From: Parafrankia sp. EUN1f
GTDB lineage: Bacteria > Actinomycetota > Actinomycetes > Frankiales > Frankiaceae
Assembly: GCF_000177675.1 (NCBI RefSeq)
Contig: NZ_ADGX01000014.1
Location: forward strand, 1-64,000
Direction: 5' to 3'
Length of the DNA: 64,000 bases
Position 1 is the stretch's first letter. Each line of letters starts with the position of its first letter. Below the pieces are notes generated by a model, which was not told the DNA's origin, searched no databases, and saw only the letters and a list, made by a program, of their open reading frames with translations. Shown in pieces: positions 5,890 to 50,349 of this stretch. Made by a program: the position numbers and the translations under genes.

Positions 5890-5948
5890 CGCACCGTCGC
5901 CGATAATCGGCGCGGCGGGACCACGTTTCCTCGATCGCTTCGATCAAT

Positions 5949-6015
5949 GATCCTTCTTCGTCTCACGGTGCCTGGTCGGGGATGCCGCAGGTATGGGTCG
6001 CGACGAAAAAGGATC
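5949..6015 (+). repeat. Palindromic element copy A (family I)
   Basis: This 67-nt element lies between convergent genes. Its 14-nt arms, GATCCTTCTTCGTC and GACGAAAAAGGATC, pair with one mismatch. The centre carries TCACGG and GCCGCAGGT, which are shared or nearly shared with copies at 34780 and 50241. It may act as a bidirectional terminator, a REP-like or mobile palindrome, or a structured RNA; the sequence alone does not decide. Confidence 0.85.
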
Positions 6016-6030
6016 AATCGGTCTATAGAT

Positions 6031-33535: not shown

Positions 33536-34485
33536 GCCCGCAGATCCTCGCCCAGGCGGCCGAGATCACCAGCACGTCGAACGGCGAGGCCTGGACCTTC
33601 TGGCTGCTCGCGCCGGTGGCGCTGATCGCCGGGCTCGGGATGGTGCTGATGCGCAGCGCCGTGCACTCGGCGTTGCTGCTCGTGGTGAACCTGTTCTGCG
33701 TGGCGGTGTTCTACCTGCTCCAGGACGCGCCCTTCCTGGGTTTCGTCCAGATCATCGTCTATACCGGCGCGATCATGGTTCTGTTCCTGTTCGTGCTGAT
33801 GCTGGTCGGGGTGGACTCGTCCGACTCACTCGTCGAGACGCTGCGCGGCCAGCGAATCGCCGCGGTGATCCTCGGCCTGGGCTTCGCCGGGCTGCTGGTC
33901 TTCCCGATCGGGCGGGCGATCGACGGCGGCAGCGCCGCCGGCCTCGACGCGGCGAACTCCGAGGGCAACGTCACGGCGATCGGGAAGCTGCTCTTCAGCG
34001 AGTACGTCTTCGTCTTCGAGGCGATCTCGGCACTGCTCGTCGTGGCCGCCATCGGGACGATGGTGCTCGGCCACCGTGAGCACACCGGCGAGAAGCTGAC
34101 GCAGAAGGAGCGGATGCGCCGCCGCTTCACCGAGGGCGGCCCGATCACCCCGCGGCCCGGGCCGAAGGTCTTCGCGATCAACCCGGATCTGGAGCAGGCC
34201 GTGCGCGGCTCCGGGGAGCCGGCGGTCGTCGGCGGTCCGTCCCACGACGAGGGGCCGGACGCGAGCGGTACCGGCGGCACCGGCCTCGGGGGTCCTGGCT
34301 CCTCCGGGCCTTCCGGCGGTCCCGGTTCAGGCGGGCCCGATTCAGGCGACTCCGGAGCAGGCGGTCCCCAGGTCGGCGGCGGCGGTCAGCATGTCAACGG
34401 CTCCGCCGTGGCGGAGGACGCGGACGGCGCGAACGCTGTCGGCGAGGCGGCGCCGGTCGGCGCGGGCAGCGGGGGTGGTCGGTGA
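33532..34485 (+). CDS. nuoJ: NADH-quinone oxidoreductase subunit J
   Basis: NuoJ is a membrane subunit with five predicted helices. The conserved region [17 protein letters not shown]-(gap)[20 protein letters not shown] is present. The membrane part ends near residue 185. A Gly/Ser/Pro-rich tail of about 120 residues, likely disordered and cytoplasmic, follows. GTG of nuoK overlaps the stop by 4 nt. Confidence 0.94.
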
Positions 34486-34781
34486 ACCCGGCGAACTATC
34501 TGATCCTGGCGGGGCTGCTGTTCACCATCGGGGCGACGGGTGTCCTGGTCCGCCGCAACGCGATCGTCGTGTTCATGTCCATCGAGCTGATGCTCAACTC
34601 GGTGAACCTGACGCTGGTGACGTTCTCCCGGATCCACGGGACGCTGGAGGGCCAGATCATGGCCTTCTTCGTCATGGTGGTGGCCGCCGCCGAGGTGGTC
34701 GTGGGCCTCGCGATCATCCTGGCGATCTTCCGGACGCGCAGATCCGCCTCCGTCGACGACGTGAACCTGCTGAAGTACTGA
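34482..34781 (+). CDS. nuoK: NADH-quinone oxidoreductase subunit K
   Basis: NuoK is a 99-aa subunit with three helices that takes part in proton translocation. It contains the conserved Glu in [13 protein letters not shown] and a second one in [11 protein letters not shown]. Length is standard. The GTG start is coupled to nuoJ. Its stop codon overlaps the first bases of palindromic element B, and a gap of 277 nt follows before nuoL. Confidence 0.95.
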
Positions 34782-34845
34782 GCCATTTCCATCTCACGGT
34801 GTACGGCCGGATACCGCAGGTCGGCGCCGACGGTGGAAAAGACTC
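34780..34845 (+). repeat. Palindromic element copy B (family I), between nuoK and nuoL
   Basis: This 66-nt element starts in the nuoK stop codon. Its arms are GAGCCATTTCCATC and GGTGGAAAAGACTC, with some mismatches and wobble pairs. The centre has TCACGG and ACCGCAGGT, as in copies A and C. Two 20-21 nt direct repeats (accctttcgacgtactcggg) follow at 34851-34891. Inside an operon it may cause partial termination or mRNA processing. Confidence 0.8.
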
Positions 34846-34850
34846 ACTGA

Positions 34851-34891
34851 ACCCTTTCGACGTACTCGGGACCCTTTTCGACGTACTCGGG
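34851..34891 (+). repeat. Tandem 20-nt duplication upstream of nuoL
   Basis: The sequence accctttcgacgtactcggg is repeated once, with one extra T in the second copy, directly after palindromic element B. It lies in the 277-nt nuoK-nuoL gap, which has no gene and could hold a secondary promoter; none was identified. Confidence 0.85.
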
Positions 34892-35058
34892 CCTCCTCCA
34901 GGCCTGTCCCCGGCCGCCGCAGGCGCGGCCGCGACCGGGACCTCCGGTCACGGAAGAACGGACGACACTGCAGTGACGCTTTGCGCAACAGGGGCGGCGC
35001 GGCCCGGACCACCTGCGGTGGCCCTGGCGCTGGCGCACGCGCCCGGAACCGGACCACG

Positions 35059-50097: not shown

Positions 50098-50240
50098 CTG
50101 AGGAACATCACCGGGAGCGCCCGAAGCGCTCCCGGCCCGGTCAGCCACCGGAATCCTCGCACACGCTTCTTCCCGTGCATATGCGCGTGAATTCGCCCGG
50201 TACGGGCTGTCGCGTGCGCGACTGTTGTTGACGAAACGGT

Positions 50241-50306
50241 GAGCCTTTTCCGTCTCCCGGCCCAGGCCAGGGACGCCGCAGGTCCGAGTCGACGACGGAA
50301 AGGCTC
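50241..50306 (+). repeat. Palindromic element copy C (family I)
   Basis: This 66-nt element has arms GAGCCTTTTCCGTC and GACGGAAAGGCTC that pair fully except for one bulged T. The centre has TCCCGG and GCCGCAGGT. It lies between the 6C RNA and the convergent yajQ gene, similar in context to copy A between convergent genes. It could end the yajQ transcript. Confidence 0.88.
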
Positions 50307-50349
50307 AATCTCCCATTCGTCGGCTGCCACCAGATGCGCGGGCCACGGT

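Follow-up and report, generated by a model that had tools for sequence, protein, structure and literature searches.

The described systems that lie closest to the repeat family reported here are the bacterial MITEs, the IS of the IS5 family whose transposases are of the HTH_Tnp_4/DDE_Tnp_4 type, and the REP/BIME palindromes. In common with bacterial MITEs, the family is short and non-coding, has inverted repeats and target duplications, and occurs in high copy number at polymorphic sites, but it is very small and almost wholly palindromic, its ends restore a TGA, and its parent IS has not been found in the assemblies of its hosts. With the IS5-family IS it shares identical 14-bp ends and the ANT duplications that are seen in relatives of the IS, a 3-bp ANT duplication being usual in the ISL2 group of IS5; it differs from them in being non-coding, in measuring 67 bp against about 970-1000 bp, and in its unrelated interior. 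REPs, finally, are palindromes that measure 20-40 bp and bear an unpaired tag, GTAG or CGTC, on one of their ends (PMC3733652); compared with these GTAG and CGTC families, which are likewise short intergenic palindromes, the present elements are longer, lack the unpaired tag, show target duplications, and have a candidate mover of the DDE type. No earlier description of MITEs or palindromic repeats in Frankia has been found in the open-access literature.

We have analysed a window of 64,000 nucleotides (the whole stretch of DNA under study), which belongs to a genome of 9.35 Mb (G000), and we have compared this genome with that of a sister species (G004) and with those of four other congeners (G001, G002, G003 and G005). 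Very probably, the family is a MITE that is moved by an IS5-family transposase with the same 14-bp ends and ANT targets; what has been observed is a high copy number, sharply defined ends, duplicated ANT targets, sites that are unoccupied in the sister, and, in relatives, an IS that carries this repeat. We regard it as a new family within a kind of element that is well known, the MITEs, most likely derived from IS5, and not as a new RNA. It accounts for a repeat of which two Frankia-type genomes carry more than 100 copies each; its points of interest are the missing partner transposase and the ends that are compatible with stop codons, while in kind it is otherwise ordinary.

A preliminary description had reported three palindromes in the window, all of which we have found where it had placed them (Table 1); the ends that it noted are exact, i.e. 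they are the outermost bases of the terminal inverted repeats, from the G of GAGCC or GATCC to the C of GGCTC or GGATC. The family model scores the three copies at 68-81 bits (all three are among its 26 training copies), and on the + strand each of them is more stably folded than its shuffled versions (z of -4.4, -3.4 and -3.0). The three copies can be aligned well with one another. Since the flanks of copy C do not match, this copy would be old or rearranged.

Table 1. Positions of the MITE copies and associated features in the window, and own-genome insertion sites that are empty in the sister species G004.
Feature	Position	Strand	Remarks
Left target site duplication AAT, copy A	5946..5948		Single AAT and no element in sister G004
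MITE copy A	5949..6015	+	67 bp; variant ends GATCCTTCTTCGTC...GACGAAAAAGGATC; insertion evidenced by empty sister site
Right target site duplication AAT, copy A	6016..6018
nuoK host gene	34482..34781	+	PF00420, E 1.5e-29; stop codon overlaps first two bases of copy B
Left target site duplication ACT, copy B	34777..34779		Empty site in G004 reads AAGTACTGACGCC
MITE copy B	34780..34845	+	66 bp; between nuoK and nuoL
Right target site duplication ACT, copy B	34846..34848		From window sequence and empty site in G004
MITE copy C	50241..50306	+	66 bp; unmatched flanks GGT (50238-50240) and AAT (50307-50309)
Empty in G004: copy A site			CTTCGATCAATCGGTC continuous; 98% identical over 164 nt
Empty in G004: copy B site			nuoK-nuoL spacer
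Empty in G004	C308:6852
Empty in G004	C373:73937
Empty in G004	C336:18629
Empty in G004	C374:48400		Nearby 24-nt tandem duplication downstream (L097), absent in sister
Empty in G004	C354:26971		Sister reads ATC

The search of the genome and its relatives with a covariance model, which the preliminary description had suggested, has been carried out with a model built from 26 copies and has yielded at least about 126 copies at E<=1e-5 in the own genome, where at least one additional copy was missed, and at least 105 copies in the sister species; the same search has given none in the four other congeners. Likewise, GAGCCTTTTCC occurs 89 times in the own genome, against a single occurrence of the reversed control; the palindrome family is far beyond chance. 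The copies are typically 66-70 bp long (about 67 bp for the family) and carry no transposase gene, and a second subfamily among them has a different loop, TCTCACGTTTGTCGAGYGCTGTAGCC.... The patchy distribution across species fits a mobile element. The exact long pattern has no match in the GTDB contig collection, which may not include the own genome of the window, while a 19-base pattern of the ends gives scattered matches in GTDB and viral contigs, none of which matches the family-level model. In a second genus, a few diverged palindromes share the ends of the MITE; these loci (L229, L239, L242 and L245) are of low copy number and similar size, with different loops, which suggests a MITE that is related, older or separate.

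Most copies carry at both ends the 14-bp terminal inverted repeat GAGCCTTTTCCRTC. The base that precedes TGAGCC is identical to the base that follows GGCTCA in 87 of 121 copies, whereas shuffles give a mean of 33 and a maximum of 51, and the consensus layout of left flank, element and right flank is C-ANT, GAGCCTTTTCC...GGAAAAGGCTC, ANT. On account of this identity and this layout, we read ANT as a 3-bp target site duplication, although identical 3-base flanks are kept in only 44 of the 121 copies and are absent in copy C. When the empty sites are rebuilt, they read C-A-N-T, with a weaker preference outside. Tandem copies that are located one base apart occur on six contigs (C238, C289, C296, C373, C202 and C394), probably because the junction of two copies, GGCTCANTGAGCC, itself offers an ANT target whose flanks are the preferred ones.

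Seven insertion sites of the own genome are empty in G004, each consistently with a single ANT (Table 1), and 11 of the sites that could be resolved carry the element in both genomes; because of these shared and empty sites, the family appears to have been active both before and after the split of the two species, unless copies have been lost cleanly. At two further sites (C363:13089 and C204:9202), the sister has other sequence; at the latter of them, palindromes of the type GAGTTGAGGATTTTGGTCGCCAGA...CCGAAATCCTCAACTC are repeated in its locus L190, and these may be a second miniature element that is nested in the first.

A concrete candidate for the transposase is provided by the relatives. 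In G001, the 14-bp repeat GAGCCTTTTCCATC, identical to the MITE ends, is located at contig ends beside a transposase reading frame; the left and right ends of this IS are seen in separate contigs, and beyond the repeat the interior of the MITE is unlike it. The candidate transposase matches PF13359 (92 bits) and PF13613 (63 bits), both above the cut-off, and its best NCBIfam model is NF033581 of the IS5 family (117 bits, below the cut-off of 140); the protein of a relative in G048 is nearly complete, has both an HTH_Tnp_4 and a DDE_Tnp_4 domain, and comes closest to models of the IS5 family. Matching ANT duplications flank several full-length relatives of the IS, i.e. L252 (968 bp) and L277 (1003 bp), both with AAT/AAT and GAGCCTTTTC-type ends, L262 (ACT/ACT) and L272 (ATT/ATT), while the ANT-like flanks of several other full-length relatives do not match. 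The candidate parent IS may belong to the ISL2 group of IS5, an assignment that we offer as a lead and not as a result. Six of the loci (L261, L262 and L270-L273) form a second IS group, with about 36% transposase identity and ends GAGCCTTTCCC, in which two copies have matching ANT duplications.

Homologues of the candidate are present in 19 of the 35 genomes of the taxonomic family, none of them being G000 or G004; a search with PF13359 has turned up a single weak match in G000 and nothing in G004, and an intact transposase with the MITE ends has not been found in either assembly. The mover has thus not been seen together with the MITE, and the insertion of the latter is read from sequence comparison. 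In the mechanism that we propose, a DDE transposase of the HTH_Tnp_4 + DDE_Tnp_4 type of the IS5 family would recognise the 14-bp repeats and move a palindromic DNA transposon, non-autonomous and about 67 bp long, which would insert at an ANT target with duplication of the three bases; an IS of the G001 type would have supplied the transposase, and this would since have been lost from both MITE-rich genomes or would have acted from a replicon outside the assemblies.

The absence of the transposase type that matches the terminal repeats, together with the presence in G000 of other IS5-like transposases (PF13340, PF01609), leaves some room for a different mover, i.e. another enzyme of the IS5 group or an unrelated DDE enzyme that is present in both G000 and G004. 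We consider this unlikely, since the ANT target and the GAGCCTTTTC ends match the HTH_Tnp_4/DDE_Tnp_4 group, and no PF13340 or PF01609 locus of the own genome has these repeats at both of its ends. Solitary repeats in the own genome have proved to be degenerate or missed copies or chance occurrences, and no IS. A REP/BIME family with a RAYT tyrosine transposase as its mover would also be short, palindromic, mostly extragenic and abundant, with occasional tandems, but the symmetric paired ends, the length of 67 bp, the ANT duplications and the DDE-type IS with the same ends in relatives are so different from it that we give this origin next to no credence. Of the readings that had been offered at the outset, the mobile palindrome is correct, though as an inverted-repeat transposon with target duplications and not as a REP, while the terminator class and the structured RNA are not supported.

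The last two of these, taken together as a structured RNA or a bidirectional terminator family whose hairpin is selected at the 3' ends of genes, would account for the stable folds and for copies that are mostly intergenic, some of them exactly at stop codons; we nevertheless hold them to be very improbable. The hairpin ends in ...GGCUCA and is not followed by a U-run, and its U stretch lies within the 5' arm. Among 85 intergenic copies, classified with a simple, crude gene caller based on codon bias, 51 are located between co-directional, 20 between divergent and 14 between convergent genes; the placement of the window copies, two of which have convergent neighbours while the third lies in the nuoK-nuoL spacer, had been described correctly but is not typical of the whole family. 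Orientation relative to the flanking genes shows no clear bias (20 same, 31 opposite, p 0.16). Searches of Rfam at gathering and relaxed thresholds have returned only tRNAs in the window; a typical copy scores no more than 13 bits, where the threshold is 100. The patchy distribution and the sites that are empty in the sister also speak against an RNA or terminator family.

The argument for selection on structure in the preliminary description, i.e. that differences between copies A and C are compensated in the opposite arm, is not supported, although the paired differences themselves are real. Across 113 distinct copies, both-side changes of a pair fill 51 cells, compared with 27.6 in shuffles, and the proportion paired is in slight excess (87.4% vs 85.9%), but about four-fifths of the deviating arm positions are altered in one arm and not in the other. 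GATCC/GGATC and similar paired variants are found again in several copies (e.g. C388:34774 and C238:16799) and can therefore be co-inherited; paired variants are also known to arise when the arms of a palindrome are corrected against each other during replication. In 11 orthologous copies from the two species, the arms change nearly as fast as the loops (7.0% and 9.1% of positions), and of 22 altered arm pairs, 6 have lost and 6 have gained pairing by one change, 4 are still paired through one change, and in none has pairing been maintained by changes in both arms. These 11 orthologous copies, whose power is limited, do not support selection on the hairpin once the element has inserted. Covariation between the arms of repeat copies calls for caution, as it can stem from transposon ends and co-inheritance rather than from RNA function.

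Under the MITE reading, the contact of some copies with stop codons would follow from their ends: since the element starts with GA and the target ends with T, insertion at ANTGA would rebuild the TGA. In 14 cases, the upstream frame is terminated by the TGA of the element itself (TAG in one case), and in 10 of these the same codon is also a stop in the empty site as rebuilt; some adjoin another copy. A further case is nuoK, where the T of the left ACT is the first base of the stop codon and the GA of copy B completes it (34779-34781). The 32 copies that are scored as lying within genes mostly represent short overlaps and are not readable as gene disruptions. A TGA is located beside the target base, on either strand, in 34 of 77 rebuilt sites, compared with about one in ten estimated from composition with T fixed; this excess may arise from target choice, from purging of harmful insertions or from both. 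That these ends and this target make insertion at a TGA harmless and have let more than 100 copies persist, some of them perhaps co-opted as 3'-end elements, is a tentative idea, and rather a doubtful one. The empty sites offer natural comparisons of expression with and without the element, e.g. inside the nuo operon. Just past copy B, the nuoK-nuoL spacer contains two direct CCCTTTTCGACGTACTCGGG-like copies (window positions 34852-34892), to which repeats at the corresponding place in G001 are related.
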